This document shows, in pieces, positions 33,281 through 55,217 of a stretch of DNA of 64,000 nucleotides. A model generated the notes under the pieces. It was not told the origin of the DNA. It was given only the letters and a program-made list of their open reading frames with translations, and searched no databases. The position numbers were made by a program, and so were the translations under genes. Location of the stretch: positions 30,462,966 through 30,526,965 of the forward strand of contig JAOWCC010000019.1 of NCBI GenBank assembly GCA_030867875.1, in the 5' to 3' direction. How positions within the stretch are numbered: position 1 is the stretch's first letter; every line of letters starts with the position of its first letter. This DNA is from Actinernus sp. WN-2022 (taxonomy: Eukaryota > Cnidaria > Anthozoa > Actiniaria > Actinernidae).

Positions 33281-33402
33281 TGTTGATATAAATGCTAATT
33301 TCGCAGTAAATGCTATCTATAGACCCAACATAAGTTTAGCACTAAGCATGAGGTGTAAAAAACTTAAATGATAATTATTTTTTTATATTACTGACCGAAA
33401 CT

Positions 33403-34088
33403 TTAGCAGTTAATTAAATGCTAAACTTACGCTCTGTATATATGGAGAGTCACACTTTAGTAGTTATTTAAATGCTAAACTTACCCTCTCTATATATGGA
33501 GAGTCACACTTTAGCAGTTAATTAAATGCTAAACTTACGCTCTGTATATATGCGAGCTCACACTTTAGCAGTTAATTAAATGCTAAACTTACGCTCTGTA
33601 TATATGCGAGCTCACACTTTAGCAGTTAATTAAATGCTAAACTTACGCTCTGTATATATGCGAGCTCACACTTTAGCAGTTAATTAAATGCTAAACTTAC
33701 GCTCTGTATATATGGGCAGTCTCACTTTAGCCGTTAATTAAATGCTAAACTTACGCTCTGTATATATGGAGAGTCACACTTTACCAGTTAATTAAATGCT
33801 AAACTTACGCTCTGTATATATGCGAGCTCACACTTTAGCAGTTAATTAAATGCTAAACTTACGCTCTGTATATATGGAGAGTCACACTTTAGCAGTTAAT
33901 TAAATGCTAAACTTACGCTCTGTATATATGGAGAGTCACACTTTAGCAGTTAATTTAATGCTAAACTTACGCTCTGTATATATGGAGAGTCACACTTTAG
34001 CAGTTAATTAAATGCTAAACTTACGCTCTGTATATATGCGAGCTCACACTTTAGCAGTTAATTAAATGCTAAACTTACGCTCTGTATA
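33403..34088. repeat. 54-bp satellite array, left part
   Basis: About 13 units at 54-bp spacing. Each holds a near-perfect palindrome: TTTAGCA and TGCTAAA arms around TTAATTAA. ACTTACGCTCTGTATATATG follows, then one of two boxes, GAGAGTC or CGAGCTC. The array is cut at 34088 by the Polinton and continues at 55213. Confidence 0.95.
34083..34088. other. Target-site duplication, left copy
   Basis: TGTATA precedes the Polinton; the right side reads TGTATA at 55212-55217. Because the element may itself end in T, the duplication is 5 bp (GTATA) or 6 bp; Polintons characteristically make 6 bp. Removing the element and one copy rebuilds the satellite consensus CTCTGTATATATGG. Confidence 0.75.
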
Positions 34089-34443
34089 AGTAGGGGGAAA
34101 AGGCCGATTCTGGCGCAGTTTTCTGGCGCATTGGCAATACTGGCGCAGCGCCAGTAATGACAATTCTCCAGACAACTCCGTCAGAAGTCTGCCTTTTCCT
34201 CCTACTGTTAATTTATTCAGCCTGTCTGATACTTAATGAAATAATTATATAGTCGTTCCAAGAAACCGGTTTAAACTGGATTCCAAGAATTCGATCACGT
34301 GATCACGTGTAATCGACCACGCCCTAATTGACCACGCCTATGAATGGAATGCCAAGGTCACATAGTATCTTTTTTTTCTTGATGAAGTCGATGAAGTTGA
34401 TCACCTCGTGTAATTGACCTTGACCTTGACCTTGACCTTGACC
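34089..34443 (+). repeat. Polinton left terminal inverted repeat
   Basis: Matches the reverse complement of 54859-55212 with about two substitutions (near 34193 and 34253). It contains several TGGCGC motifs, the perfect palindrome ACTGGCGCAGCGCCAGT (34139-34155) and two CACGTG boxes (34296-34309). It ends in five TTGACC units. The terminal protein-priming site and integrase-binding site are expected at the outer end. Confidence 0.97.
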
Positions 34444-34444
34444 T
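34414..34444 (-). promoter_or_regulatory. Array of AAGGTCA half-sites in left TIR
   Basis: Five TTGACC units read on the minus strand as overlapping TCAAGGTCA, the extended half-site bound by monomeric nuclear receptors of the NR5A/ERR type. A further CCAAGGTCA is at 34352-34360. Function is inferred only. Confidence 0.4.
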
Positions 34445-34454
34445 TATTTTAATA

Positions 34455-34477
34455 TATTCAAACTATATAAGTAGGTG
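34455..34477 (+). promoter_or_regulatory. TATA box of the coiled-coil gene
   Basis: ACTATATAAGTAGGTG sits immediately before the ATG at 34478; TATATAAG is a canonical TATA element. A start site so close to ATG would give a very short leader. Confidence 0.45.
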
Positions 34478-36214
34478 ATGTTTAATAATAATATTGAAAT
34501 GGAGGGAATCATAAAAGGATACAAAGATATCGAAAAAGTAAAGTCTAAAAAGGAAGACGAATTAAAAGAAGTAAGAAAGAAGATTTCCTCGATATCTAGA
34601 CATCTAGAGAAAGTAAAAAGGAGTAAGGCAAAAGGAAGGAAAGAGATCATGGTACGAATCGAGGAAGATTTAGAGAGAGGATCGTACAATGAAAAGATTC
34701 TGGAAGAAGAATTAGAGTCTATCAAAATAGAATTGAAGGATTTCATAGAAGAACATAATCTAGATACTACACTAATTAATAAAAGTAGCGAACCGAAAGA
34801 TAAGAGTAGTAAACCAAAAGATGAATGTATGCCACCAAAGAGTAAGCCAAATGACAAGCATATGTTATCGAAGAGCGACATCGCATCCTTAGAAAAAGTA
34901 GTAATAAAAGATAACGTAATGAAAGTAGAGAGGATGCTCATGGAAGAATATAATAGAATGATAGAAAGGAAGAACGAACTCGAGTATAAATTATCGGAAC
35001 TAAATAATGGTATTCGCGAGCTCAATAAATATTTATCATATCAGAAGGAACAACCAAAAGATAAGAGAGATAAAGAAAAAATAATAGAAAGTAGAAAGCG
35101 AAGAGATGAATTCGCATCCGCTTATGATGATGTTGAATCTGCTTACGATATGAATAATAAATTAATAAATGAGCATATTAGTGCATTTGGTTTAGAACCT
35201 GCATCTAGTGGTCTATCAGTAAGAGAATTATATAGTAAGGCTAGACAGTTAAATATAGAGAGTCGAAAAGAAACTAATCGATACCTCGGAGAGCGAGATG
35301 AAGAAAAGCAACGATATGAACGCTTAGAAGAAATGGTTAAGGAAGAGCAATCTAAACCACGAAAGCAACAACTCAAAAAAGACGAACGAGTTAAGGAAGA
35401 ACAATCTAAACCACGAAAGCAACAACTCAAGAAAGACAAACAACCTAAACCACAAAAGCAACAACCTAAGAAAGATGAACGATATGAAGAAGACAATCAA
35501 ACTGAAGAAGAGATGGAGCAATCCGAAGAAGACAATAAATCTGAAGAAGACCAAATCGAGGAAGAGCAATCTGAAGAAGACCAAATCGAGGAAGAGCGAT
35601 CTGAAGAAGACAATCAAATCGAACTGATAGAACAAATCGAGGAAGAGCAACCTAAAAAATCTGAGGAACAACTTAAGAAAGACAAACGAAATGCACGAGT
35701 TAGACAACGCAGGAAAGAGAAACGGCTTGAGGAAGAGCAAATTGAACAACCCAAACAATTAGGGCAAATCACACTACCCAATCAAAATACAATTGAACAG
35801 TTAGAGCAAATTGAACAACTCAAACAATCAGAGCAAATCTTACTACCCAATCAAAATACAATCGAACAGTTAGAGCAAATCGAAGTACTAAAGACAATCG
35901 AACGACTCGAACAGTTAGAGCAAATTGAACTACGTAATCAAAGGACAATCAAACAAGAGCAAATTAGGCTACCCAATCAAGAGATAATTGAACAATTAGA
36001 GCAACAACCCAATCTAATTGAACAGCTAGAGCAACAACCCAATCTAATTGAACAATTTAAACGAGAGCAAATTAAGCAGTTAGAGCGAATCGAACAATTT
36101 AAGCAAGAGCAAATCGATCAACTAAAGCAAAAGCAAACCAAACAATTAGAACGACTTGAACAACTAAAACAAGGACAAGATAGACAATTACGAATTATCA
36201 AGCAGTATAAGTAG
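34478..36214 (+). CDS. Glu/Gln/Lys-rich coiled-coil protein
   Basis: The protein has 578 residues and I recognise no named family. Residues ~1-100 and ~150-210 are charged helical coiled coil. Residues ~100-130 form a lysine/proline/serine linker with repeated (S/P)KPKD. From ~290 the sequence becomes low-complexity: first KPRKQQLKKDE-type repeats, then acidic EEDQIEEEQSEED repeats. It ends with glutamine-rich EQLEQ and LPNQNTIEQ repeats. There is no signal peptide or membrane segment. It is the first gene inside the left end, on the same strand as the TFIIB- and zinc-finger genes, and its last codons form one arm of the hairpin over the TFIIB start. It could be a scaffold, tegument-like or DNA-organising protein, but this is a guess. 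The first ATG (34478) is chosen; another lies at 34499. Confidence 0.85.
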   Translation: MFNNNIEMEGIIKGYKDIEKVKSKKEDELKEVRKKISSISRHLEKVKRSKAKGRKEIMVRIEEDLERGSYNEKILEEELESIKIELKDFIEEHNLDTTLINKSSEPKDKSSKPKDECMPPKSKPNDKHMLSKSDIASLEKVVIKDNVMKVERMLMEEYNRMIERKNELEYKLSELNNGIRELNKYLSYQKEQPKDKRDKEKIIESRKRRDEFASAYDDVESAYDMNNKLINEHISAFGLEPASSGLSVRELYSKARQLNIESRKETNRYLGERDEEKQRYERLEEMVKEEQSKPRKQQLKKDERVKEEQSKPRKQQLKKDKQPKPQKQQPKKDERYEEDNQTEEEMEQSEEDNKSEEDQIEEEQSEEDQIEEERSEEDNQIELIEQIEEEQPKKSEEQLKKDKRNARVRQRRKEKRLEEEQIEQPKQLGQITLPNQNTIEQLEQIEQLKQSEQILLPNQNTIEQLEQIEVLKTIERLEQLEQIELRNQRTIKQEQIRLPNQEIIEQLEQQPNLIEQLEQQPNLIEQFKREQIKQLERIEQFKQEQIDQLKQKQTKQLERLEQLKQGQDRQLRIIKQYK

Positions 36215-36271
36215 AATTGAATCTTTCCATTTTCTAAATTTAGAAATGGAAAGATTCAATTCTACTTATAC
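36205..36271 (+). promoter_or_regulatory. Inverted repeat over the TFIIB start codon
   Basis: Perfect 28-bp arms (36205-36232 and 36244-36271) flank an 11-bp loop TCTAAATTTAG, itself palindromic. The 5' arm covers the last codons and stop of the coiled-coil gene. The 3' arm begins two bases before the TFIIB ATG (36246) and extends through its first codons. In RNA the start codon would lie at the loop-proximal end of a very stable stem. Confidence 0.95.
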
Positions 36272-37214
36272 TTCGGATGCGTTATACTATTTCGATATGT
36301 GTGAAGAAGAAGAAGAAGAAGATGATGAACCAACGAATACGAGGTGTACTGAAATAGTAAGGGACAAGCAAAAAGGCATAGATGTCTGTATCAAATGTGG
36401 TCAAGTGCAAGGATACATCCTAGATAACAATCCTGAATGGACTACGTACGAAGGAAACGACAGTTTAGGTACGAATAGATGCAGTGGACCAATCAATGTA
36501 CTATTACCCCAATCATCTCTCGGTACAAGTATCAGTGGTAACAAATATGGTAAACTACAAACACTAAATAGATGGTTACAAATGCCATATAGAGAGAGGA
36601 GTCTGTATATGGTTTTCAAAGATATCGAAGAGAAATGTAAAAGCATTGGTATTCTAAAGTGTATTGTGGATGATGCTAAAATTATCTTCAAAGAAATAAA
36701 TTCACAATACTATTTTAATGATGCTAATGTAAAAAAGAGTGTCATTATGAGAGGAACGAATAGAAAAAGTGTAATTGCAAATTGTGTTCTCTTTGCATGC
36801 AAAAAGAATAATAACACTAGATCATCGAAAGAAATAGCTATACTATTTAAACTAAATCATAAAGATATAGCAAAGGGATACAAGGTCTTTACGAAATTAA
36901 CTAAAAATATTAAATCCTTTAGAAAATTAGACTATAGCTCTCCTGATGACTTCATTCCACGATTCTGCAAGATCCTTAACTTTAAACAAGAACTCATAGA
37001 TCAAGTTGTGAAAATCACAAGAAACGTTCAAAAGCTAAATATCGCAATAATGCACACACCACTTTCTATAGCTATTGGATGTATCCTATTAACAATAAAT
37101 ATAAACAATTTAGCAATTACGAAGAAAGAGATAGCTAATAAGTTCCTAGTGTCAGAAACCACTATATCTAAAGTTTACAAAGCAATAGAGCCATATAGAA
37201 ATGAGCTTGTATGA
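36246..37214 (+). CDS. TFIIB-like general transcription factor
   Basis: A 322-residue protein with the TFIIB order of parts. An N-terminal cysteine ribbon (C34, C48, C51 with CIKCG; the fourth ligand may be C19, an unusual spacing because of an acidic insert) is followed by a B-reader/linker-like segment with NPEWTTYEGND. Two cyclin folds come next. The first (~105-215) has an RGTNRKSVIANCVLFACKK core like the TFIIB helix with Arg-Gly-x-Asn. The second (~228-322) contains SPDDFIPRFC and ends in a KKEIANKFLVSETTIS helix-turn-helix typical of the DNA-contacting helix. TFIIB bridges TBP-bound promoter DNA to RNA polymerase. Such factors are common in nucleocytoplasmic large DNA viruses; I know of none described in an animal Polinton. 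It pairs logically with the TBP homologue at 44941-45705, although the genes lie in opposite blocks. The start codon is in a hairpin. Confidence 0.9.
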   Translation: MERFNSTYTSDALYYFDMCEEEEEEDDEPTNTRCTEIVRDKQKGIDVCIKCGQVQGYILDNNPEWTTYEGNDSLGTNRCSGPINVLLPQSSLGTSISGNKYGKLQTLNRWLQMPYRERSLYMVFKDIEEKCKSIGILKCIVDDAKIIFKEINSQYYFNDANVKKSVIMRGTNRKSVIANCVLFACKKNNNTRSSKEIAILFKLNHKDIAKGYKVFTKLTKNIKSFRKLDYSSPDDFIPRFCKILNFKQELIDQVVKITRNVQKLNIAIMHTPLSIAIGCILLTININNLAITKKEIANKFLVSETTISKVYKAIEPYRNELV

Positions 37215-37249
37215 CACTTAAAGAGACGACGTCATAATGTATTATTGAG

Positions 37250-37726
37250 ATGAATGATAATAAAGAAATACCTCCTATTAATGAAGTCATCATTAATGGA
37301 AAGATTAGAGATTACTCATTCGTTAAAGATAATCATAAGAACAAGAAGAGTGTAAAAACTACCAATTGTGATACGAATAAAGTAACGTACTTCGATAGTA
37401 TGTATGCTATTCAGCAACATCTTGGAATTAATGCTGGTATAGTCAAGATGGTTTGTGAAGGGTTGAATAATTGTAAAAGTGGTATATCAAAGATAGACAA
37501 GTGTAGATATGCATTCGAATATGTAGAAAGAGATGAACTACCAGAAGATTGTAAGAAATCGTCTTATGAACGAAAGAAAGAGAAATTGCCAGAATCTGAA
37601 CTAAAGGAAATGCGAAAGGTGATAAGTAAGGAATGGCGACAAAGAGAATATATTTGTCCTGATTGTAATGCAGTAATAAAGAATGGTAGTAAGTACGTTC
37701 ACAAGAAGAGACACTTAGGCAAATAG
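37250..37726 (+). CDS. Small DNA-binding protein: NUMOD-like helix plus C2H2 finger
   Basis: The protein has 158 residues. Residues ~45-95 (TYFDSMYAIQQHLGI, then a short helix and KCRYAFEY) resemble the NUMOD/IENR-type DNA-binding repeat found with homing endonucleases and many viral proteins: Tyr-x-Ser, a helix with LGI, and a closing aromatic strand. The C-terminus has a Cys-x2-Cys-x11-His-x3-His finger (CPDCNAV...HKKRH). No nuclease catalytic motif is seen. It is the last of three plus-strand genes. Its 3' end overlaps by about a dozen bases a minus-strand open extension that follows the 445-residue gene, so transcription converges here. A role as transcription or replication regulator is inference. 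Confidence 0.75.
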   Translation: MNDNKEIPPINEVIINGKIRDYSFVKDNHKNKKSVKTTNCDTNKVTYFDSMYAIQQHLGINAGIVKMVCEGLNNCKSGISKIDKCRYAFEYVERDELPEDCKKSSYERKKEKLPESELKEMRKVISKEWRQREYICPDCNAVIKNGSKYVHKKRHLGK

Positions 37727-37896
37727 ATACCAACCTACTCCTGCTGCTGCTATTGTTAGTACAATCAAATTAGTTTCATGAGAGGATGATGCAAGTGTTA
37801 TTTGTGGTTTCTTTATTATAGGCTTCACTATTGGTTTATTGCCATATTGGTGTGGCAGTTTAACTTTACCTATATTATGTTTTGATACTATAGGTT
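37715..37896 (-). pseudogene. Out-of-frame C-terminal extension of the 445-aa gene
   Basis: Open -1-frame stretch of about 60 codons without its own ATG: a basic, proline-containing linker and then a hydrophobic stretch of roughly 18 residues next to the stop. Its composition looks protein-like, and it continues the upstream gene after an A-run. It is separated from it by a frameshift. Confidence 0.6.
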
Positions 37897-39234
37897 CTAC
37901 TTTTTATTTACTGAGTCATTAGCTCCAAATGTCATATCATTTGTAGCTTTCAATAATTTATTATTGTATCCTACCACACTTTGTGTATTTATGACGAGAT
38001 CAGATGGCATTAACCATATTCCTGGAGCAATGGCTAAGTCTAGTCTCAATTTCGCTCCTTGAACAGCTAATTGATATCGTTGTATACTCATTGATACGTT
38101 ACCTTCAATTACAGCGCTTTCAAAAAGTGATAGCATTTCCTGTTGTGTCTCAATAGCACTTCCACCAGTACCAATAATACTCGATCGCGTATCCACTTGT
38201 GAACCTAATATGCAATAAACGAAAGCCTCTGCTGATCTATTTAATCTACCCATACCAGCTATTGTTAATCCACTATCTTCATTTGGAACGAACCAAGAAT
38301 ATTGTTTACCATTGTGGTCATCATTACGGATAAATGAAATGAGATTTCCTTGGTCAACCTTACCACCCTCGTCAGAGAATAGTTCTCCATCTGGACTAGG
38401 ATATAAGTTAGCATCTATATCGTATCCACGAATTTCGTGAACGTTTTCATAACCAGAACCTGAATAATATAGAAATATATCACCAAGTCCATTATTGCGT
38501 CCTCCTTTCCACCTGAAGTCTGGATTGGAAGGAATATCGAATTCATTACATAACTGTTCGAAAGTAACTTTACTATAACGATTATTTGTTTGATTGAAAA
38601 TATGATCATCTGGTAATGGTGTCCCCAATTCATATAGGATTCTTCGTATAGTATAGTAAACGTGAAACTTGATAAATCCTTGAACAACTGGAGGATACTG
38701 TTCTTGTAGACTTATTCCACAACCAGAAGTAGCACACCATACAGCAAAGTTTAATTGTTGTGGCCAATATCCATAGTCAGGCTTATTCAACCAACGTCTT
38801 GACTGTTTAGCAGATTTGAAAGTCACTGTACAATCCTTGAAGATGTTTCTAAACTTTATGATAAAGTACTGAGTTGGGGAAACGTATATCTTCATTTCTT
38901 TCAATGATGGTGCAATATCCAAAGCTGTTTGTGTAAATGAGATTCCAGGGATTGGATACTTGTGTGTAGTTGGTAATAAGGAATCTGGAAATGATGTTGG
39001 CGGTTCTAGAGCTATTCTCATAGCCTTCTTATCAGCATTCGTTAAAGAACTAGGATCATCAATGAATTTCTTATCGCCCCACACACCATGATCCATAATT
39101 GGTCCTTTGAAGTATACGTTATAATAAGTAGTACCATATTCTTCAGTGGCTTCCTTATAGAATCTACTTAGGTCAGCATTAGGATAGCGTTGCTTGAAAC
39201 TATTCCATACTTCAATCAATTTCTTCGAAGCCAT
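37897..39234 (-). CDS. Conserved Polinton protein of unknown function (445 aa), C-terminally frame-broken
   Basis: ATG at 39234 (MASKKLIEVW) gives 445 residues. I recognise the type, with conserved WPQQLNFAVWCATSGCG, QGFIKFHVYYTIRRILYELG and a late VVGYNNKL, as one of the standard orphan proteins of cnidarian-type Polintons; its function is unknown. No protease triad or nucleotide-binding motif is evident. The frame stops at 37897-37899 just after a run of five A (37901-37905, minus sense). In the -1 frame the strand stays open about 62 more codons to a stop at 37715-37717, ending in a short hydrophobic, tail-anchor-like segment. Either one base was lost from the A-run or ribosomes shift there. 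It could be a structural or membrane-associated virion protein. Confidence 0.8.
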   Translation of the reverse strand: MASKKLIEVWNSFKQRYPNADLSRFYKEATEEYGTTYYNVYFKGPIMDHGVWGDKKFIDDPSSLTNADKKAMRIALEPPTSFPDSLLPTTHKYPIPGISFTQTALDIAPSLKEMKIYVSPTQYFIIKFRNIFKDCTVTFKSAKQSRRWLNKPDYGYWPQQLNFAVWCATSGCGISLQEQYPPVVQGFIKFHVYYTIRRILYELGTPLPDDHIFNQTNNRYSKVTFEQLCNEFDIPSNPDFRWKGGRNNGLGDIFLYYSGSGYENVHEIRGYDIDANLYPSPDGELFSDEGGKVDQGNLISFIRNDDHNGKQYSWFVPNEDSGLTIAGMGRLNRSAEAFVYCILGSQVDTRSSIIGTGGSAIETQQEMLSLFESAVIEGNVSMSIQRYQLAVQGAKLRLDLAIAPGIWLMPSDLVINTQSVVGYNNKLLKATNDMTFGANDSVNKK

Positions 39235-39330
39235 ATTTATGATATGAGACAATGTTTTATATCATTTAGTATTTTTCATATCTAAATTTATGAATGAAAC
39301 CTCCATAAGGTGTTACATCATAGGAGTGTG

Positions 39331-39939
39331 TTATTTCTCTAGTTGTTTTAATAGTTCCTGTTTTACTTCCTCTCGTATCTTCTGTGTATCGGTTTTCTCT
39401 ATAGTATTGGTTCTTTTTTTTAATTCCTCTTTTCGGGTATTTTGTCGGATCTCACCTTTCAAGTCTTCATACTTATTAAATTCAACCATAATCGATTCGA
39501 ATTCTGTATCACTGATCTTGTTATCATTCAATGCTTTCGATACTAGGTCACGTATTGTGTTTAGTTTTGCTTTTCCTAACATTACTGTTTTTTCATGTTT
39601 GGACACCTTCTTGGTTAGAGCTTTAGTAGCTGTTGCAGAAGAAGCTGAAACTAGACCACACAAACCGCCAACTACTCCTACTGGGAGTCCAATGACAGCA
39701 CCAAACCCTGTCAAAGAAGTCGCTACTGCAGAACTTGTTAAGATAACTGAAAGTAAGCCAGCACCTACAGAAAGATTGTGGGTTATTCCTCGTATTCTAA
39801 CGTATTTCTTCCGTACCTTTTCATAATGTTTTATTTCAGCTCCTAATTCTGATAGAACCGTATTTACCTTATGAAGTCTAAAGTTTTCTCCAGTGACTTG
39901 TAGCGGTATATCTGGGTAAATCGAATCGTAGTCAACCAT
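39331..39939 (-). CDS. Hydrophobic-core Polinton protein (202 aa)
   Basis: A 202-residue protein with a hydrophilic N-terminal region. A long glycine/alanine/serine-rich hydrophobic centre follows (about residues 52-105: VGAGLLSVILTSSAVATSL and GLPVGVVGGLCGLVSASS), probably two membrane-inserting hairpins. The C-terminal half is helical and charged (SKALNDNKISDTEFE, then a Lys/Glu coiled coil). I recognise this arrangement from cnidarian Polintons, where it is an orphan. A membrane-active or capsid-lining role is plausible by analogy with minor virion proteins, but nothing in the sequence proves it. It lies between the long penton-like gene and the 445-residue gene, in the same minus-strand block as the virion genes. 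Confidence 0.8.
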   Translation of the reverse strand: MVDYDSIYPDIPLQVTGENFRLHKVNTVLSELGAEIKHYEKVRKKYVRIRGITHNLSVGAGLLSVILTSSAVATSLTGFGAVIGLPVGVVGGLCGLVSASSATATKALTKKVSKHEKTVMLGKAKLNTIRDLVSKALNDNKISDTEFESIMVEFNKYEDLKGEIRQNTRKEELKKRTNTIEKTDTQKIREEVKQELLKQLEK

Positions 39940-39963
39940 ATGATTAATAGTAGCATCTTTCGT

Positions 39964-41709
39964 TTAAACGATTTCTAATACAATTCGCATTGGATATATT
40001 CCACCATTTATCATATTATGATTACCATCTGTTACCCATACACTAACGCTATTGATATGATTAGCCTTTCTAACATTAATATAATTATTTGGAGTGTGGG
40101 ATATCTTTTCACCTCTTTTGTTTAATTCTATAGATGTTAGTATTTGAGAATACTTAGTTTCTTTTATGACTTGCGTTGGGTTGATAATATCACAATGAAT
40201 ATGTATGACACTAGTACTCTCCTTAATATCGATCTCGGTTCTAAACCAACTACCAATATTATCTTTTGTAGTAAGTAATCTAGCTAAGTTCTCACTTAGT
40301 ATGATATCTTCATTAGAAGTAAGATAGACTCTATCATTTATGGTTTCTATATTGATTGTATCCTTGTGTTTGGTAAACTTACTCATTGTGGCTATAATTT
40401 CTAGTAAGTCGTAATCTCCACTAGGGATGTGGTATAGATCATCATCATCCATATCGAAAATTATACCATCTTCTGGAAGGTTGATGGTTTGGCGTATATA
40501 GAATCGGGTCCTACTTGATGCTTTAATGTGTTTACCAATATTGAGGAATTTAGCCATACTATCATTCAATATGAGGTCATCATTAGTATAGAGGCGCCAT
40601 TCATTGCTGAGGTATGGATGACCTATAATAGGATTACTCGATGGATTCGAATTTCCATTGACACTATAGAAGATATCAGATATAGTCTGATAAGTATGGT
40701 CTCCCTTAGGAAATCTAAATATTACGACACCATTTGTGTGAGAGATCGTACCTTCACTTGGAAGGTTGTAGGCTTTCCATATCTGGATCTCATTTCGAGA
40801 CCCACGTTTTAAGGTTCTATTAATAGTAAGTAGTTTAGCTAAGCTTTTGCTTATGGAAAGATCTATATTAGAAATTAGGTAGGTTATATTATCTAAATAT
40901 TCTATAGAGAATAATAAGTTAGTCTGCTTTATGAAGATTTTGAAACTTTCTAAGGTATAATCTCCGCTAGGAAGACGTAATAGCTCATTACGATATATAT
41001 CATGAATTATACCATCACTTTTGAGATTAGTGGCCTTTGTGATCTGAATGGTGTGAAGTTGCTCTTTCCATAATGTTCTATCAGTGTGAAGTAATGTAGC
41101 TAAGCTCTCGTTTAGTGTGACATCTTTTTTGATGGATAAATAAGTAGTACCACCCTGTGTAGATGTTCCTATATCTTTCTTTTCTTTATTAACACCATAT
41201 GCGAAATTTCTTAGGTAATTATTAAAACTTTCTAAAGTATAGTTTCCTTTTGGAAAACGATATAGTTCGTTACCACGCATATCGTAAATTATACCATCAC
41301 TTGTGAGATTAATAGCCTTTATGATCTGAATCTCATTTAGGGATCCCATTTTCAAGCCCTTATTAATAGTAAGTAACTTGGCTAAGCCCTCATTAAGAAT
41401 AATATCTTTATTAGGAATAATATAGGTTATACCTTTTATAGTCTTAAGAAGAAATGGCTCCCTTCTTTCCATATTATCTTTATTTATTTTATTTATTAGG
41501 TTTTTAAAACTTTCTATGCTATAATATCCCTTAGGAAAACGATATAGTTCTACGCCTACGATATCGGAAATTGTACCATCATTAATAAGATTATATGAAT
41601 GATCATAAAAATTACAATTAATCATCGAAACGTGTTTTCTAACTTCGATGGGGTTCTTCAAGTATATAGTCTCATCACATTTTGTCTTTTCAATATATAG
41701 TACTACCAT
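39964..41709 (-). CDS. Long penton/minor-capsid-like protein with five tandem modules
   Basis: The protein has 581 residues. It begins MVVLYIEKTKCDET, nearly identical to the start of the neighbouring 213-residue gene, and ends with the same C-terminal domain (IHIHCDIINPTQVIKET to PMRIVLEIV, ~498-581). Between them, instead of one, there are five copies of a ~90-residue beta-rich module (about 1-131, 132-225, 226-312, 313-407, 408-497). Each has DGxIxD, LYRFPKG(D/N)YTLESF and, near its end, LAKLLTIN. The end domain resembles the C-terminal jelly roll of Polinton penton-type minor capsid proteins. The expanded form may act as a spike or fibre. It arose by gene duplication plus module amplification. 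Confidence 0.8.
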   Translation of the reverse strand: MVVLYIEKTKCDETIYLKNPIEVRKHVSMINCNFYDHSYNLINDGTISDIVGVELYRFPKGYYSIESFKNLINKINKDNMERREPFLLKTIKGITYIIPNKDIILNEGLAKLLTINKGLKMGSLNEIQIIKAINLTSDGIIYDMRGNELYRFPKGNYTLESFNNYLRNFAYGVNKEKKDIGTSTQGGTTYLSIKKDVTLNESLATLLHTDRTLWKEQLHTIQITKATNLKSDGIIHDIYRNELLRLPSGDYTLESFKIFIKQTNLLFSIEYLDNITYLISNIDLSISKSLAKLLTINRTLKRGSRNEIQIWKAYNLPSEGTISHTNGVVIFRFPKGDHTYQTISDIFYSVNGNSNPSSNPIIGHPYLSNEWRLYTNDDLILNDSMAKFLNIGKHIKASSRTRFYIRQTINLPEDGIIFDMDDDDLYHIPSGDYDLLEIIATMSKFTKHKDTINIETINDRVYLTSNEDIILSENLARLLTTKDNIGSWFRTEIDIKESTSVIHIHCDIINPTQVIKETKYSQILTSIELNKRGEKISHTPNNYINVRKANHINSVSVWVTDGNHNMINGGIYPMRIVLEIV

Positions 41710-41735
41710 TATACATGTATAATCTTTTTATCTTT

Positions 41736-42377
41736 CTAAATAACTCCTAACACGATCCGCATTGGATATGTTCCAGAACTTATCATATTATGATTACCAT
41801 CTGTTATCCACAATCGTATGCTATTAATATAGTCAACCTCTCTAATACTAATATTAGGTGAATTATTAGGGGTATAGGATACCTTTTCCCCTTTTTTATT
41901 TAGTTCCAATGATGTTAATATTTGTGAATGTTCAGTTTCTTTTATGACTTGTGTTGGATCGATTAGATCGCAATGAATATATACAACATTAATCTTAGTA
42001 ATCTTGATCTCGTTTCGAGACCCTATTTTTAAACTCTTATTAATAGTAAGTAGTCTAGCTAAACTATCATTCAGTATGACATCGACTGTAGGAATGAAAT
42101 AGGCTTTACCATTTGAAATTCCTATACTGATTGGCTTATCACCAATAGAAATAGCATTACTTACAGCATTTTTAAAACTTTCTATAGTATAGTCTCCTTG
42201 AGGAATACGAAGTCTTACGTTACCTTGCATATCGGAAACTATACCTTCACTCATAAGATCGTATAAATTATTATTAAAATTACAGCTAATCAGTGAAATA
42301 TACCTCTTAACTTCAATTGGATACTTGAGATATGTGGTCTCATCACATTTTGTCTTTTCAATATATAATACTACCAT
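41736..42377 (-). CDS. Penton-like minor capsid protein (213 aa)
   Basis: A 213-residue protein made of one N-terminal ~120-residue module (IPQGDYTIESFKNAV, SLARLLTINKSL) and a C-terminal beta-rich domain (VVYIHCDLIDPTQVI to TYPMRIVLGVI). Single-jelly-roll minor capsid proteins of about this size occupy the vertices of Polinton and adintovirus-like particles. The assignment here rests on length, predicted strands, family resemblance and its place in the virion block. It is the short paralogue of 39964-41709, 26 bp away and on the same strand. TATAGTATA lies just before its ATG, the motif shared with the capsid gene. Confidence 0.75.
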   Translation of the reverse strand: MVVLYIEKTKCDETTYLKYPIEVKRYISLISCNFNNNLYDLMSEGIVSDMQGNVRLRIPQGDYTIESFKNAVSNAISIGDKPISIGISNGKAYFIPTVDVILNDSLARLLTINKSLKIGSRNEIKITKINVVYIHCDLIDPTQVIKETEHSQILTSLELNKKGEKVSYTPNNSPNISIREVDYINSIRLWITDGNHNMISSGTYPMRIVLGVI

Positions 42378-42390
42378 TATACTATACAGT
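42378..42390 (-). promoter_or_regulatory. TATAGTA motif before short penton-like gene
   Basis: On the minus strand TGTATAGTATA abuts the ATG. Related motifs precede three other genes (48555, 43758, 53372). Confidence 0.5.
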
Positions 42391-43323
42391 CTATCTTTTA
42401 TTTTTATATCTTTCTACGAAATAAACAACTACAGCCACAATAAGAAGCCATGCATTTTTAGCCAAAAAGCTAATTACTTCTCCAGCTGTTCTAAAAATAA
42501 AGGATGCAATTGCTCCAATCATTCCAGGCAATAATTCGCCTAATTTCTTTCCAATAGTTTTCAAACCATTTCCAATACCTTTTGCAACAGATGATAGTCC
42601 ACTTGTTAGACTATTAACGATTACTCCAATAACAACCCCAACAGCTGTTAGGACAGCAATGACTGTAAAACCATATTTTTTGAATATAGCTTTTATGCGA
42701 TCTCTTAGAGACATGCGCCCTTCTATTACTTCATTCACCTGTTCAAGTCTATCGATCTCATCTGCTTCTAATTCTATCTGTGCTCTAATTGATCTATTTA
42801 ATCTATCTCTAACATTTTCGTCTTCAGTTTGAGTTATATCTTCCAGATCTTGTTCTAGTGCTCTAATCTTTCCTTTTCGTCTAGATATTTTTTCTTCGTT
42901 TCCAAATACTACTCTATCAGCTGTCATACCAAGAGAACCAGCAATCGTTGGGGGTAATTCCTCACTTATTTCTCCATCTGCAGTAAATAGAACATAAATC
43001 TTAGCACCTTTTCTATTTAGTCTTACTACCACTCGTCCCAAATCATCTAAGGTTGCTGTGAACTTGGATTTCACAGGGTCGAAGTTGGGAAACAACGTTC
43101 TAATTCTTTCCCAAGCGCTATGGGTTCTATTTTCTCTAATAATTAGTAGGTTAGTATTGTCGCCTTCTATGAATGACGTTTCTTCAGTGGTGTGGGTACG
43201 ATGTTGAGTTGATGTCAATTGAGACATTTCGTGATATTCGTCATCGATATAACCATCGTTATCGTGATCATCATGATCATCGAAAGGATTGCGTTCATCA
43301 GGATCCACTGGGTCAATTTCCAT
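42391..43323 (-). CDS. Acidic-headed multi-helix membrane protein (310 aa)
   Basis: Residues 1-35 are very acidic (Asp/Glu/His-rich). A mixed region to ~140 and a charged coiled coil (~150-205) follow. The C-terminal third is strongly hydrophobic: YGFTVIAVLTAVGVVIGVIV, an amphipathic glycine-rich middle, SFIFRTAGEVISFL and a final AWLLIVAVVVYFV before a basic tail. I recognise it as a recurrent cnidarian Polinton protein with no known function. The membrane-end layout suggests an internal-membrane or membrane-disrupting virion component. It sits between the short penton-like gene and small membrane proteins. Confidence 0.8.
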   Translation of the reverse strand: MEIDPVDPDERNPFDDHDDHDNDGYIDDEYHEMSQLTSTQHRTHTTEETSFIEGDNTNLLIIRENRTHSAWERIRTLFPNFDPVKSKFTATLDDLGRVVVRLNRKGAKIYVLFTADGEISEELPPTIAGSLGMTADRVVFGNEEKISRRKGKIRALEQDLEDITQTEDENVRDRLNRSIRAQIELEADEIDRLEQVNEVIEGRMSLRDRIKAIFKKYGFTVIAVLTAVGVVIGVIVNSLTSGLSSVAKGIGNGLKTIGKKLGELLPGMIGAIASFIFRTAGEVISFLAKNAWLLIVAVVVYFVERYKNKR

Positions 43324-43346
43324 ATTTTATAATATATAATATCTTT

Positions 43347-43757
43347 TTATACGAGTTTAGTAGCTATATATGTTATAGCCATAATACCACCTCCCACATA
43401 TGCCATTTCATATTGTTTCTGATTATTACTTGGTTTATAATAGTTAGATAATTGTGGTTCATTCAAATTGAAATCTGGATGTGTTTGAGCATATAGTCTA
43501 AAAGCGTTGTCAGTCTCTTTGTCATTATCATCTGCGTGGATTTTGTTTTGATACTTTTCTGATAACCAATCTTGATATCCTTGTCTTCTTTTCTGCCACT
43601 TACCCATATCGCGTTGATATTTTTCTAGAGCCTTGTCGTGTCTAATTCGTTCTTCATCTGAATTGTTACCTGATAGGTACTTCGCTAGATATGATCCTCC
43701 TACAAATGTCGTTGCATTTAAGATAGCTCCACCAATCATTATTGCTATAGTTGCCAT
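43347..43757 (-). CDS. Small two-helix membrane protein (136 aa)
   Basis: Hydrophobic segments lie at both ends (residues ~3-25 with IMIGGAILNATTFVGGSYLA and ~117-136 with VGGGIMAITYIATKLV). Between them is a charged, tyrosine/tryptophan-containing helical loop (KWQKRRQGYQDWL). It is a recurrent Polinton orphan by my recognition. It probably spans a membrane twice or lines the capsid. TATAGTATAGC precedes its ATG. Confidence 0.8.
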   Translation of the reverse strand: MATIAIMIGGAILNATTFVGGSYLAKYLSGNNSDEERIRHDKALEKYQRDMGKWQKRRQGYQDWLSEKYQNKIHADDNDKETDNAFRLYAQTHPDFNLNEPQLSNYYKPSNNQKQYEMAYVGGGIMAITYIATKLV

Positions 43758-43778
43758 GCTATACTATATGTACATTTG

Positions 43779-44021
43779 TTAAAGTGACTTTGGTAATATC
43801 TTCTTATCTTCAAGGTACTCTTTCAGATACATACTTCCAGATAAGACTAAGACCCACTTACCATAATTCGTGATACTTGATGAGGGATCATTTAGGAATG
43901 ACTCTTTCATCATCTTTTTGCTTAGATAACCAACACCAGCTGAAAGTCCAACTACGACAGCAGCATCTGTAAATGTTTTAACGAGTTTATTTTCTACCAT
44001 GATACTTACATATCTTACCAT
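43779..44021 (-). CDS. Small hydrophobic protein (80 aa)
   Basis: The protein has 80 residues and two weakly hydrophobic stretches (AAVVVGLSAGVGYLS and GKWVLVLSGSMYL). An alternative start lies seven codons in (MVENKLV). No family is recognised. It belongs to the tightly packed minus-strand run of small genes with gaps of about 20 bp. Confidence 0.65.
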   Translation of the reverse strand: MVRYVSIMVENKLVKTFTDAAVVVGLSAGVGYLSKKMMKESFLNDPSSSITNYGKWVLVLSGSMYLKEYLEDKKILPKSL

Positions 44022-44038
44022 AGGTTTAAATCAATTCA

Positions 44039-44377
44039 CTACATACCTATATTTTGAATGGATGACTTTGTAGATGGCCTTATTTCTTCTATTACGTTAG
44101 GTTCTCCAACTTTATTATTCCTATATCTAAAATACAAGTCTGTAGCAGTTAGGCCAATACCAACTATTGTTAATACTGTCGTAAACGATAACTCGGGTAT
44201 GTAAGACTTAGGATCCACCTCATCCGTACTTACCTCTTTCTTTGCTTTCTTACGGTATTCCGCTAACTTCTTTCCAGCTTCAACCTTCTTAGGATCTTTT
44301 GGAGTTCGTTTTTTATTTTCTACCTCCTTAGTAATTTGTTCGATATAGTCATCATCAAATATCTTATCGTTCGACAT
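44039..44377 (-). CDS. Single-pass membrane protein (112 aa)
   Basis: A basic/acidic N-terminal half (EVENKRTPKDPKKVEAGKKL) is followed by one hydrophobic helix (TVLTIVGIGLTATDLYF) and a short tail. No named family. It belongs to the same compact gene run as its neighbours; likely a virion or membrane-associated factor. Confidence 0.7.
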   Translation of the reverse strand: MSNDKIFDDDYIEQITKEVENKKRTPKDPKKVEAGKKLAEYRKKAKKEVSTDEVDPKSYIPELSFTTVLTIVGIGLTATDLYFRYRNNKVGEPNVIEEIRPSTKSSIQNIGM

Positions 44378-44401
44378 ATTATAAATAATATACTTTAATG
44401 T

Positions 44402-44917
44402 TTAAACCAATTTGCTCTCAGTAGAAATCTTAACATGTTTTGCTATTTGAAGTAAGCCACTTGCTAGAGCTACTATTCTACCCCCCTTCAATACTAAGTA
44501 TCCAGCAGCATTTGATAGTTCTTGTTTGACTAATTCATTGGTTTGTAAATCATTGCACAATTCTTCATTGTTATCTATAGTAACCATGTGGGAGATTATT
44601 TCCACAGTAGCTTTTATAGCGGTATCTACTAAGCCATTAGTAACTTTATTACCAACTATGACTTGGTACCTATTATAATACTTCTCAACATCTTTTACTG
44701 ACAACTTCTTAACGTCACCAAGACTCATATTGACTCCAACAAATTCATTGATAGTTCCCAACACTGCTAGGATTGCTAAGGATTCCCTTTTATCGTCTAT
44801 GTCTGTTGGGATTACTGTTGGCTCTTTCTTGAGTCTTACCTTCTTCTCTTTCGGAGCTTTTATTGGTTGGACATCTTCTTCATTATTATCGATATACTCT
44901 TCAATGATTGATTCCAT
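44402..44917 (-). CDS. Helical orphan protein of the Polinton late block (171 aa)
   Basis: An acidic then lysine-rich N-terminal tail (about 1-40) precedes a compact helical domain with conserved-looking AGYLVLKGGRIVALASGLLQ near the C-terminus. I recognise this ending from cnidarian Polintons; the function is unknown. There is no signal peptide. It lies 23 bp downstream of the TBP-like gene on the same strand. Confidence 0.75.
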   Translation of the reverse strand: MESIIEEYIDNNEEDVQPIKAPKEKKVRLKKEPTVIPTDIDDKRESLAILAVLGTINEFVGVNMSLGDVKKLSVKDVEKYYNRYQVIVGNKVTNGLVDTAIKATVEIISHMVTIDNNEELCNDLQTNELVKQELSNAAGYLVLKGGRIVALASGLLQIAKHVKISTESKLV

Positions 44918-44940
44918 ATATTATAATTGTCAATTATCGT

Positions 44941-45705
44941 TTATGTATCCATTGATTGAGATCCATATCCAACGATTAAGATGAGATCCGCATAGTTGCT
45001 AAGCAGGAGAATTGAAATGTAACTAAATGCATCATTAATTTGCTTTGCAGTTGTTGCTCCAGTAATTATAATGGAACCACTTGTGAATACGAAAATGGAT
45101 GTCTGCTTTCCTGCATCATTATCGAGCTTAATATTGACGCATGCATGCCTGTCAAGATTTAAGAATACCTCGACGTCTCTTTCCACTAGGTAATCGCGTA
45201 GTCTTTGTCTATCTATTTGGAATCCAATATTCATCAAGCAATTGATCATGCTGATCTTAAAATCGTAGACATTATTAATGTTTAAAAGTTTTGGACAATC
45301 GACAAAAGGTTTCTTTCTCAATTCTATACACATTTTATTAAGAGCTTCAATAGTACCATTGATACTTTTACAACCTGTCATCTGTATTGATCCATTATTG
45401 AACAACTTCGTATTTATGTATTTATCATCATAATTCGATTTTATAATGATGGTTATTTGATTTAGGAAACTCTTCTTAACCTTTTTCTTTTCATTCAGTA
45501 AAGATCTCACTTGCTGAATACCTTTGTTGTTATAGTTGATGGAAACTATGGCATCCTTATTCAACTTTAGATACCTATATATATTCTCAGTATTGAATTT
45601 TACATTGAACTTGCACACTATTGTCATCGTACTTATGCTCAATTTGTCATCTATAGTATCTAAGCTAAAGAGGGAGTTTAACTCTTCTATTTTATTGATA
45701 GCCAT
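44941..45705 (-). CDS. TATA-binding-protein (TBP) homologue
   Basis: A 254-residue protein with the TBP saddle plan: two direct repeats of about 90-100 residues. Repeat 1 contains TMTIVCKFNVKFNTENIYRY and, after a lysine-rich insert, KLFNNGSIQMTGCKS. Repeat 2 contains NVYDFKISMINCLMNIGFQ and VFTSGSIIITGATT, the hallmark Phe-x-Ser-Gly-x-x-x-x-Thr-Gly-Ala strand-turn whose phenylalanine wedges into the minor groove. Each ends in a helix (TAKQINDAFSYISILL). Sequence is far from cellular TBP, as with TBPs of large DNA viruses. It should bind promoter DNA with the TFIIB-like protein. Its ATG lies in a 40-bp-arm hairpin. I know of no described animal Polinton with TBP. Confidence 0.87.
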   Translation of the reverse strand: MAINKIEELNSLFSLDTIDDKLSISTMTIVCKFNVKFNTENIYRYLKLNKDAIVSINYNNKGIQQVRSLLNEKKKVKKSFLNQITIIIKSNYDDKYINTKLFNNGSIQMTGCKSINGTIEALNKMCIELRKKPFVDCPKLLNINNVYDFKISMINCLMNIGFQIDRQRLRDYLVERDVEVFLNLDRHACVNIKLDNDAGKQTSIFVFTSGSIIITGATTAKQINDAFSYISILLLSNYADLILIVGYGSQSMDT

Positions 45706-45755
45706 CTCTACGGTGAGAGATGGCTATAAAGAAAATAGAAGAGTTAAACTCCCTC
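45670..45755 (-). promoter_or_regulatory. Inverted repeat over the TBP start codon
   Basis: Arms 45716-45755 and 45670-45709 are 40 bp each with two mismatches and a 6-base loop. In the minus-strand transcript the 5' arm lies in the leader, and the 3' arm begins four bases before the ATG (45705) and covers the first dozen codons. The geometry matches the TFIIB hairpin. Confidence 0.95.
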
Positions 45756-45774
45756 ATACTATTTGAGAGGAGCC

Positions 45775-46644
45775 TTAGTTCATATTTATTCTGTGGAAGT
45801 ACTTTTTATGATTTCTTAGTGTTTCACTTGTGCAGAATTTCCTATTACAATATTTACATCTTATTCTAATATCTTTTAGATAATCATTTAGCTCTTTTAT
45901 TATTAGATCATAATCGTTTGATACTAAACACTTGAACTCATTCTCTTCATACTTCTCTAATAGGTTCTTTTGTGCATTAGACAAGACACCATTACCAGTG
46001 GGGGTTTTAAATTCGATGCATAAACCTTTGTAAGTTTTGTGACAATTACTTATTATAATATCTGGCTGCCCTTTCATATATCCTTTCTTATAAGAATCGA
46101 TTCGTTTAGTTGAACTATCTTGTAATTCACCTAATCCAGCTGTCATAACGACATTAGGATAGAATCGTCTAATATAACTAACTACTTTTGTGTGTAGGTC
46201 ATACTCGTCTTCTATCTTGAATGTTAGTGTGTTAGGATTGTCAAACATTTTATAGTATCCATACTTTCTAATAGATGGTAATACTTTGGAGAATACCCAT
46301 TTTTGAAATACTTTAGCTGAATCTAATTTAGATCCAAAGATGAGGGAGTATAAGCCAGGTTCTTTTATGAATATCATATGTGGTTGCACATTATTCAAGG
46401 GGGGAACGAAACGGGCCCCCCTTGAAGGGGGTATGAAACGCCCACCTTGTAATTTTCTATATTCTACCTTATATTCTTCATCCACATGGTCTCTTATTGC
46501 TTTCCTAGTATTTTCGTAACCCAATGCTCTAGCAATATCTATACCTTTGAAATAAACATTCTGCTTACTATCTATGAAAGCATTGATAGACATATTAAGT
46601 TCGACATTTTCGAATCTCTTGATTACTAGCGTCATTATAATCAT
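45775..46644 (-). CDS. Bro-N / VRR-NUC nuclease / zinc-finger fusion
   Basis: The protein has 289 residues and three parts. Residues ~13-135 form a Bro-N (baculovirus repeated ORF N-terminal) DNA-binding domain: FKGIDIARALGYENTRKAI, EPGLYSLIFGSKL and FQKWVFSKVLPSIRKYG. Residues ~145-250 look like a VRR-NUC-type PD-(D/E)xK nuclease: GQPDIIIS supplies the aspartate and CIEFKTPTG the Glu-x-Lys. A C2H2 finger (CKYCNRKFC...HKKYFH) closes the protein. It may resolve replication intermediates or act in virus-host conflict. A GC-rich in-frame duplication (GGRFIPP/GARFVPP) sits in the Bro-N domain. It lies between the ATPase and TBP genes. Confidence 0.85.
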   Translation of the reverse strand: MIIMTLVIKRFENVELNMSINAFIDSKQNVYFKGIDIARALGYENTRKAIRDHVDEEYKVEYRKLQGGRFIPPSRGARFVPPLNNVQPHMIFIKEPGLYSLIFGSKLDSAKVFQKWVFSKVLPSIRKYGYYKMFDNPNTLTFKIEDEYDLHTKVVSYIRRFYPNVVMTAGLGELQDSSTKRIDSYKKGYMKGQPDIIISNCHKTYKGLCIEFKTPTGNGVLSNAQKNLLEKYEENEFKCLVSNDYDLIIKELNDYLKDIRIRCKYCNRKFCTSETLRNHKKYFHRINMN

Positions 46645-46649
46645 ATGTG

Positions 46650-47297
46650 TTAACTACCCTTTAAGTCTATTGCATTAGGTATCTCAAGATAACATTGAAA
46701 TGGATATCGTAAGCAAAAACATATCCTAGAATACTTTTCAGACTTTAGTAGCTTTACGAATTTCTTACGATCTTCATTATCCATGTCTCCTCCACACTCT
46801 TCAAATAATGTTTTAGTTGCCGTTTGACATGAACTATGAAATGCTACAACGCAAGCTACGTTTTCACGAAATGGTTTAGCTATTGAGGTTAGTTGTTGAG
46901 TTAATACCCAAACGGATATTCCTTCATGTCTACCTGAAAACCCTAGATTAATGAACTTATTAGAACGCTGTTTTAGATCCTTACTAAAAGCGCAATCATC
47001 TAATATTATTAATGTATTAGTACCTGTAAATAATTGTTGGCAATATGATAGTAAATCATTTATCTCATCTACGTTACTTGCATCAGGCGATAAAACAATG
47101 AATCTAGGATCACCTTTTGCAAATCCATGATATGTCTTATTATTTATGTACGTTGGGCAAAATAGTACTACGTATTCGAATATATAACGAAAGGATCCTC
47201 TAAGAAGATCTATTAAATATTTCGTCTTTCCACATTCCGTTGGTCCTGTAATGATACAGTGGAAAGGTGTCTTGTCATTCAATTTTTCCATATACAT
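46650..47297 (-). CDS. A32/FtsK-HerA-type genome packaging ATPase
   Basis: A 215-residue P-loop ATPase. Walker A is GPTECGKT (residues 18-25), Walker B is LIILDD (96-101), and VLTQQ (131-135) is the conserved glutamine-bearing sensor. This is the compact form of the viral packaging ATPase that drives genome entry into preformed capsids. The gene lies directly downstream of the capsid protein, the usual morphogenetic pair, and ends only 5 bp before the Bro-N gene starts. All catalytic motifs are intact. The first ATG (47297) is two codons upstream of another (47291); either may be used. Confidence 0.92.
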   Translation of the reverse strand: MYMEKLNDKTPFHCIITGPTECGKTKYLIDLLRGSFRYIFEYVVLFCPTYINNKTYHGFAKGDPRFIVLSPDASNVDEINDLLSYCQQLFTGTNTLIILDDCAFSKDLKQRSNKFINLGFSGRHEGISVWVLTQQLTSIAKPFRENVACVVAFHSSCQTATKTLFEECGGDMDNEDRKKFVKLLKSEKYSRICFCLRYPFQCYLEIPNAIDLKGS

Positions 47298-47315
47298 ATA
47301 TTAATACTCAATCTC

Positions 47316-48554
47316 TTAATACATAATTGATTGGAGTTCGTTATTCATAAGAGTGAATAGAGCATCAGCCACTACGAACATGTAACAGGTAACAGCAGAA
47401 GATCCAGACTTTCTCCTAATCTCTAGTCTCACACCATCTCGTGTATTATTCAGTGTCAATCCTCCTCCATGAACATCGTTATCTGCGAAAGTTCTCAAAT
47501 CAACCCACAATGCAAACTTATCACTAGCATAGAAGTCATTTTGTTTCACACCTTCTAATCCTGGAAAGCGTTTCCTTATGGAATCCCACAGATCCGATGG
47601 TAGCATACCTTTTGAGTATAGACGATTTGGCATTCCATCAATATCAACAATTACAGATGTAATCTTTGGGTTAGCAAACTTTTCAGAATCTCTCGTACCT
47701 GCAGTATATGTTTCCATAAACAAGAATAATACTCCTGTCATAGACCTACGTGGTAAATTAATATGTTCATTGATAACAACATCCGTTGTCTTGATATTGA
47801 ATGTCTTATATAGAATTATATTCTCATAGAAGAAGCCTCTACCTCCTCGATACGTTGATGCAGCCTCACCTGCAAGTAATTCGCTCGAAATACATGAATA
47901 CTCCATTTCTATATTTGTAAGTTTATAATCAGGAGGTATTGTGGTATCTGAATATACTAATACTTCTGCGACTGGGGCTAGCGTAATCTCAAATATTAGT
48001 GGATGAGGTAGTGCCTTTGGATAGAATACTCCATGATTATTTAAGATAGAGTGGTCAAGTGGGATTTTATACTTAGTGCCGTGTATTGCTGCTAGAGCAG
48101 TATCCTTAGCAACATCAGAAGGCTTATCACCAGCACCTGCTCGCATCTTTCTCATAGCTTCAGAAGATATGCCTTGTTTTATTCTATTTTCACGTTCTTC
48201 CGTTGATAAGTATAAATCGTGATAGGTATAGAAAAGATCATGACGTTGTGTATCCTGAATAGTCTCTCCACCAAATATTACCTTTTGTCTATATATTAGG
48301 TTCCTACCTATATTGTTCACAAGTCTCTTATTTGCATGTCCCGTGATGACAATATCGAATAGTAGAGCTATGCTACCAGGAACAATAACGACATTCTCTG
48401 TTAATTGTGGAATATTGACATACAGAGTTTCTCCTGGACTTGCAGAAGATGGATTCATAGTTATACGATTTAGACTACTTTCTGCTTTCAATCCAAATGG
48501 GTGCTTATAAATATGACTGACACTTAGCTTTTCTGAAATCGTTTGTGGCGACAT
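47316..48554 (-). CDS. Major capsid protein, double jelly-roll type
   Basis: A 412-residue, beta-strand-rich protein. Near the N-terminus a PSSASPGETLYVNIP segment is followed by a strand-rich NNIGRNLIYRQKVIFGGETI, matching the pattern of double-jelly-roll capsid proteins (a Gly-x-x-Leu-Ile strand then a GG-x-x-I turn). YRGGRGFFYENI and NLPRRSMTGVLFLF lie in the second half. It is shorter than the best-known Polinton capsid proteins, but it adjoins the packaging ATPase and matches a capsid type I recognise from cnidarian elements. It would form the pseudo-hexameric capsomers. It starts 36 bp from the divergent integrase; TATAGTATT abuts its ATG. Confidence 0.78.
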   Translation of the reverse strand: MSPQTISEKLSVSHIYKHPFGLKAESSLNRITMNPSSASPGETLYVNIPQLTENVVIVPGSIALLFDIVITGHANKRLVNNIGRNLIYRQKVIFGGETIQDTQRHDLFYTYHDLYLSTEERENRIKQGISSEAMRKMRAGAGDKPSDVAKDTALAAIHGTKYKIPLDHSILNNHGVFYPKALPHPLIFEITLAPVAEVLVYSDTTIPPDYKLTNIEMEYSCISSELLAGEAASTYRGGRGFFYENIILYKTFNIKTTDVVINEHINLPRRSMTGVLFLFMETYTAGTRDSEKFANPKITSVIVDIDGMPNRLYSKGMLPSDLWDSIRKRFPGLEGVKQNDFYASDKFALWVDLRTFADNDVHGGGLTLNNTRDGVRLEIRRKSGSSAVTCYMFVVADALFTLMNNELQSIMY

Positions 48555-48590
48555 AATACTATAAGGAATAAACTATTCTCTTATTTATAT
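48555..48590. promoter_or_regulatory. 36-bp divergent promoter between capsid and integrase genes
   Basis: Entirely AT-rich. On the minus strand it reads CCTTATAGTATT up to the capsid ATG, and on the plus strand CTTATTTATAT up to the integrase ATG. Such a short gap leaves room for little more than two overlapping core promoters. Confidence 0.55.
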
Positions 48591-49553: not shown

Positions 49554-49581
49554 GCTCATGGTATTATTGTATTCATACGAC

Positions 49582-54833: not shown

Positions 54834-54858
54834 CCGGTTTCTTGGAATAACGAGCACA

Positions 54859-55212: not shown

Positions 55213-55217
55213 GTATA
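55212..55217. other. Target-site duplication, right copy
   Basis: TGTATA, identical to 34083-34088; the first T may belong to the element. Confidence 0.75.

Follow-up and report, generated by a model that had tools for sequence, protein, structure and literature searches.

The window analysed here is a 64,000-nucleotide stretch of contig JAOWCC010000019.1 from the actiniarian Actinernus sp. WN-2022 (assembly GCA_030867875.1). A Polinton-type element of 21,124 bp was identified in it (positions 34089..55212), encoding both a TATA-binding protein (TBP; 44941..45705, reverse strand, 254 aa) and a TFIIB-like protein (36246..37214, forward strand, 322 aa). A sequence-only reading had claimed that these genes occur together in one integrated Polinton, and this was borne out by Pfam matches, predicted models, fold matches, terminal inverted repeats and a GTATA target-site duplication. 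As that reading had also held, no RNA polymerase subunit was detected in a Pfam scan of 20 open reading frames (ORFs). Judged by their sequence relationships, both proteins appear to belong to a giant-virus lineage of the mimivirus/klosneuvirus kind. The explanation that we tentatively favour, with a probability of about 0.47, is that the Polinton captured its TBP and TFIIB genes from a giant virus and has kept them under constraint, and that the pair brings in an RNA polymerase, most likely host RNA polymerase II (Pol II).

The element starts with AGTAGGGGG and ends with CCCCCTACT, as placed from the junctions and the inverted repeats. The left terminal inverted repeat (34089..34442, forward strand, 354 bp) and the right one (54859..55212, reverse strand) were detected by blastn, are identical at 352 of 354 positions and show the AGT...ACT ends expected of Polinton/Maverick terminal inverted repeats. 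Copies of the target-site duplication GTATA lie at 34084..34088 and 55213..55217, inside a tandem array with varying units. This array is a host 54-bp satellite found by Tandem Repeats Finder (TRF). Its left part (33400..34088, forward strand) ends at 34088 and its right part (55213..55573, forward strand; TRF start, 55211) restarts at 55213, so that the element interrupts it. The 54-bp arrays were rejected as inverted repeats of the element, since they are a satellite cut in two by the insertion.

What is new about this Polinton is its cargo. The 19 ORFs of the element cover 19,545 of 21,124 bases. In common with animal Polintons/Mavericks and adintoviruses, it has AGT/ACT termini, inverted repeats and a target-site duplication, and encodes an integrase, an A32-type ATPase, a Capsid_N-related capsid protein and a probable protein-primed polymerase. 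The retrovirus-type (rve) integrase (48591..49553, forward strand, 320 aa) matches PF00665 (7.4e-07) and an IS481 transposase model (5.5e-10), both with scores under the curated cut-offs. The A32-type packaging ATPase (46650..47297, reverse strand, 215 aa) matches PF04665 (2.3e-13). The major capsid protein (47316..48554, reverse strand, 412 aa) was recognized through its 443 homologues. PF16903 (Capsid_N; best E-value, 2.6e-06) matches 12 of the 18 aligned capsid rows, which share 57–70% identity with the window protein, and the row of the window itself has no match; the double jelly-roll major capsid protein of a Polinton/Maverick is thus assigned by kinship only. The candidate DNA polymerase is a 1216-aa ORF (49582..53232, reverse strand) in which family B polymerase motifs were picked out by eye. 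Pfam and Protein Data Bank (PDB) searches gave no polymerase match for this ORF and weak endonuclease VII matches. Unlike Polintons/Mavericks and adintoviruses, the element has TBP, TFIIB and a BRO protein, and no protease was found in its scanned ORFs. The adenovirus-type cysteine protease had no Pfam match among the 20 ORFs scanned, many of which match nothing. The target-site duplication is also 5 bp long, not 6 bp as in vertebrate Mavericks (PMC8097293).

The TFIIB-like protein was identified from Pfam, the PDB, a family alignment, a predicted model and a fold match. It is laid out as an altered zinc ribbon (approximately residues 34–56), a reader/linker (57–115) and two cyclin folds (116–222 and 223–322). 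The sequence-only reading had described a ribbon followed by two cyclin folds. The cyclin part stood, with both repeats confirmed by Pfam, ten helices in the predicted model and a fold match; the four-ligand zinc ribbon did not, as three cysteines are present and the fourth ligand falls, along with adjacent residues, in an in-frame gap. Of 112 TFIIB relatives, 98 have the four-cysteine pattern. Among the other 14, five begin downstream, eight have other spacings by eye and one is ambiguous. On sequence grounds, the protein is therefore not classed as a canonical TFIIB but as a homologue of TFIIB whose ribbon is altered. In known TFIIBs the ribbon is the part that docks on the polymerase, and the reader/linker acts inside the polymerase. 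The reader/linker was modelled with low confidence (predicted local distance difference test, pLDDT, <50 at residues 66–108), and its conserved columns are all kept (15/15). The protein is 322 aa long, compared with a median of 440 aa in its relatives.

The TBP was identified from Pfam, a family alignment, a predicted model and a fold match. As proposed from the sequence, it has two repeats: Pfam recognizes two stretches, the repeats in the model share the same strand-helix order, and the TBP fold is matched. Profile and fold searches, which the sequence-only reading had named as the check on both proteins, thus returned matches for each. At 254 aa, compared with a median of 304 aa in relatives, the window TBP is short, and its linker is shortened. 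Yeast TBP has four DNA-kinking phenylalanines. F79, F101 and F206 (numbered without the start Met; repeat 1 placed by eye) align with these, and the fourth site is His186, which is invariant in 22 of 22 aligned rows.

Both proteins have diverged faster than their nearest relatives. With P0122 as reference, the window TFIIB carries 65 unique differences over 319 columns, versus 21 in P0121; with P0002 as reference, the window TBP carries 44 over 249 columns, versus 17 in P0001. Conserved columns were defined as those shared by at least 90% of relatives (112 for TFIIB; the 120 listed for TBP). The TFIIB keeps 6 of 7 such columns in the ribbon, where the lost one is a cysteine, 15 of 15 in the reader/linker, and 30 of 31 and 15 of 16 in the cyclin folds. 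In the TBP, all 24 are retained in repeat 1 and 26 of 31 in repeat 2; the single conserved column of its N-terminal stretch (0/1) is altered in the window and in its sister alike. Altogether, 116 of 124 deeply conserved columns are retained across ribbon, reader, cyclin folds and TBP repeats. This pattern looks more like redirected evolution of working proteins than decay.

A protein search returned 444 TBP relatives (the best 120 listed) and 114 TFIIB relatives. Those named as viruses are all giant viruses: 3 of the 120 listed for TBP (Edafosvirus, Harvfovirus and Hyperionvirus) and 2 of 114 for TFIIB (Edafosvirus and Terrestrivirus). We take these four to be klosneuvirus-like mimivirus relatives. 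The nearest sequence shares 61% identity with the TFIIB and, among the matches listed, 55% with the TBP. The window proteins belong to the same families as those of these viruses and nest inside them. Unlike the giant-virus TFIIBs, the window TFIIB lacks one ribbon cysteine and a C-terminal tail.

Careful trees were built from 40 hand-chosen relatives each (from the 114 for TFIIB and the 120 listed for TBP), with 42 rows for TFIIB, including human TFIIB, and 41 rows for TBP, without a cellular outgroup. Both window proteins nest in the giant-virus lineage, a point that the earlier reading had missed. The window TFIIB groups with P0121 (bootstrap/Shimodaira-Hasegawa-like approximate likelihood ratio test, SH-aLRT, 100/98), then with P0122 (100/99) and then with P0123–P0125 (100/98). 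The window TBP groups with P0001 (100/99), then with P0002 (100/97) and then with P0003–P0005 (100/100). Quick trees of 112 of the 114 TFIIB relatives (two short matches omitted) and of all 120 listed TBP relatives agree. In the approximately unbiased (AU) test, excluding the window TFIIB from the clade of P0121–P0125 was rejected (p = 0.003), and pairing P0121 with P0122 without the window gave p = 0.03. The branching order is the same in the two trees, suggesting one donor lineage for both genes. The contigs of near outgroup rows reach 82,492 bp for TBP (P0004) and 36,907 bp for TFIIB (P0124), both longer than the element.

Other origins were considered. A giant-virus origin was kept because the relatives at 36–61% identity lie among giant viruses, and capture from a cell was dropped, as the virus-named relatives are giant viruses. 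A phage or archaeal-virus origin was set aside: the TFIIB has a match to one PHROG family without known function (phrog_20431, 2.1e-23), which shows that this library includes a TFIIB-like family, and the TBP has none, but a tblastn search of 50,697 phage records found nothing at 1e-3. The idea that the pair is general in the capsid clade was also dropped; the evidence is indirect and comes from relatives on contigs longer than 500 kb, where 39 of the 120 listed capsid relatives (of 443; counted by eye), 0 of 114 TFIIB relatives and 0 of the 120 listed TBP relatives (of 444) occur. IMG/VR viral contigs yielded no related Polinton DNA with TFIIB, TBP, capsid, BRO and C-terminal polymerase-half queries (TFIIB and capsid as single sequence and alignment, TBP as alignment). 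These scans gave three distant TFIIB loci (L001–L003; 26–28% identity), of which L002, with an Rpb2 gene, belongs to a large virus that has a polymerase.

Under the favoured explanation, a Polinton would have taken both genes from a mimivirus- or klosneuvirus-like giant virus, probably in a single event, and the genes would have been held under constraint while diverging. The TBP would bind TATA-like boxes in the element, and one candidate box is CTTAAAG, located 21–33 nt before four start codons: at 37217..37223 (forward strand), starting 33 nt before the 158-aa ORF; at 46659..46665 (reverse strand), 21 nt before the BRO ORF; at 53259..53265 (reverse strand), 33 nt before the DNA polymerase ORF; and at 53355..53361 (forward strand), 30 nt before the 482-aa ORF. 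The motif occurs four times in the element on both strands, each time within 60 nt upstream of an ORF. Among 1,000 random sets of 19 windows, three had any 7-mer with at least four occurrences that were all inside; the corresponding figures were 1 of 1,000 for 6-mers and 2 of 1,000 for 8-mers, lengths at which the real set has none. The start context ATATG was found at 8 of 19 ORF starts, compared with 107 of the 894 ATGs that the element contains. The TFIIB would then dock on the TBP and pass the promoter on to an RNA polymerase supplied from outside the element, most probably the Pol II of the host.

Several observations weigh against this explanation. One zinc ligand of the TFIIB ribbon is gone, and a tail of approximately 100 aa is missing. 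Grouping the window TFIIB with human TFIIB is not rejected by the AU test (p = 0.173), with the single human branch being extremely long, and a grouping of P0001 with P0002 to the exclusion of the window TBP likewise stands at the 5% level (p = 0.079). The nearest rows, P0121 and P0001, could be further Polintons and not giant viruses. The motif CTTAAAG was chosen post hoc, is absent upstream of TBP and TFIIB themselves and also occurs four times in the window outside the element; in number of genes alone (4 of 19), it does no better than the top-scoring 7-mer obtained when upstream regions are shuffled (mean, 4.0; 95%, 5).

The giant-virus lineage of both genes makes the polymerase of a helper virus a serious alternative to Pol II. 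Mimivirus/klosneuvirus-type giant viruses encode their own RNA polymerase, and virophages (Sputnik, Zamilon and Mavirus), with capsid and packaging genes related to those of the element, are known to use giant-virus transcription. The element could thus be a virophage-like satellite whose genes are read by the RNA polymerase of a giant virus infecting the same cell; the TBP and TFIIB that it encodes, both of giant-virus type, would help it to claim that polymerase. TCTA, a late motif of Cafeteria roenbergensis virus (CroV), occurs in 7 of 19 upstream regions, yet also 300 times in the element. Bodo saltans virus (BsV), a klosneuvirus, has RNA polymerase subunits and the early motif AAAAATTGA (PMC5871332). 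Virophages have transcription signals in common with their giant virus, and during Zamilon coinfection the TFIIB of the helper is the most upregulated gene; unlike the element, the virophage appears to encode no transcription factors (PMC11464507). The mimivirus-type early motif AAAATTGA was found in 0 of 19 upstream regions, although the motifs of a true helper may differ. The faster change of both genes would better fit a new partner than an old one, and we know of no giant virus that infects this host. We regard such a satellite as possible, though somewhat unlikely. A related scenario, in which the Polinton is a satellite or competitor of an undiscovered klosneuvirus-like animal giant virus, took the pair from that virus and has a private transcription class of CTTAAAG promoters, TBP and TFIIB that runs on the helper polymerase or Pol II, is doubtful.

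That the pair would steer a host polymerase, as the sequence-only reading had proposed, is plausible. Host Pol II is favoured because the element is integrated, AAAATTGA is absent upstream of its ORFs, both proteins have changed fast and gammaherpesviruses set a precedent. In beta- and gammaherpesviruses, as would be the case here, a Pol II-reliant DNA virus supplies a TBP-like protein (KSHV ORF24, EBV BcRF1, of Kaposi's sarcoma-associated herpesvirus and Epstein-Barr virus) for its own promoters. To our knowledge, this late system has no viral TFIIB, and we know of nothing to suggest a common origin of the mimic and the pair in the element. Gammaherpesviruses, which depend on host Pol II, direct it to late promoters via the TBP mimic, and late transcription with this mimic requires six viral proteins (PMC7498053, PMC12529657).

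The remaining explanations are less probable. The two genes could be recently captured passengers that have no function in the element and decay slowly, which is consistent with the long branches, the lost cysteine and TFIIB tail and the shortened TBP linker. However, the ORFs are still open after much divergence, the ribbon deletion is in frame, 116 of 124 deeply conserved columns are retained and ORFs leave little unused DNA in the element, making decay improbable. In an interference role, the pair would sit on and block promoters belonging either to the host or to a rival giant virus. With one of four ribbon cysteines lost and the cyclin folds retained, such a TFIIB may bind TBP-DNA without recruiting polymerase; a pure blocker, however, would not need the reader/linker, in which all conserved columns are kept, and we consider this role quite improbable. 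An assembly chimera of a Polinton and giant-virus DNA, suggested by the foreign phylogeny of the genes, is very improbable, as the two genes lie at separate sites within one element that has matching inverted repeats and a target-site duplication within a satellite array.

The TBP gene is adjoined by a BRO-N domain protein (45775..46644, reverse strand, 289 aa; PF02498, 3.2e-25), the C-terminal part of which is zinc-finger-like (weak zinc-finger matches). A Glu/Gln/Lys-rich repeat protein of 578 aa (34478..36214, forward strand) has no Pfam match at 0.1, and the 158-aa protein downstream of a CTTAAAG motif (37250..37726, forward strand) has none above the cut-off. The 482-aa repeat protein (53385..54833, forward strand), also preceded by CTTAAAG, contains a 69-bp unit repeated 9.5 times with 99% match (53576–54228; TRF), giving near-identical 23-aa repeats; this is unusually homogeneous for a coding repeat. 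A block of nine ORFs on the reverse strand (37897..44917; 445, 202, 581, 213, 310, 136, 80, 112 and 171 aa) has no Pfam match above the cut-off and perhaps encodes virion proteins. Its neighbouring 581- and 213-aa ORFs (39964–42377) start with a near-identical MVVLYIEKTKCDET stretch and by eye have a repeated domain in common, with several copies in the longer ORF.

In the host flank, a complete single-exon 7tm_1 (rhodopsin-family) receptor ORF of 315 aa was recognized by Pfam at 21917–22864. The insertion is therefore probably in an animal genome, as had been supposed from the sequence. The left flank also contains a 316-bp tandem repeat (29968–30913; three copies, 98% match; TRF). A second 54-bp array of approximately 68 copies lies at 59397–63080 in the opposite orientation, approximately 4 kb beyond the split array, and the satellite units show CGAGCT and GGAGAGT variants. 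An Rfam scan of the window gave no match at gathering score.

The sequence-only reading knew of no described animal Polinton or adintovirus with this pair. No description of TBP or TFIIB in a Polinton was found in the available passages of the literature searched, which included PMC12220804, PMC10120064, PMC11244446, PMC8097293, PMC11071308, PMC11071296, PMC12638062, PMC11464507, PMC6401483 and PMC5871332; most subscription journals lie outside that scope. Polintons are regarded as ancestors of many eukaryotic DNA viruses (PMC7805220). In our judgement, the control of their transcription in animals is little known, and the element makes it testable which polymerase a Polinton bearing TBP and TFIIB recruits. 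Descent of the pair from a giant virus also implies that such a virus once met a Polinton within one cell, in this animal lineage or in an earlier host. With TBP and TFIIB genes but no polymerase, such a Polinton would provide an animal nucleus with a naturally occurring orthogonal promoter system.

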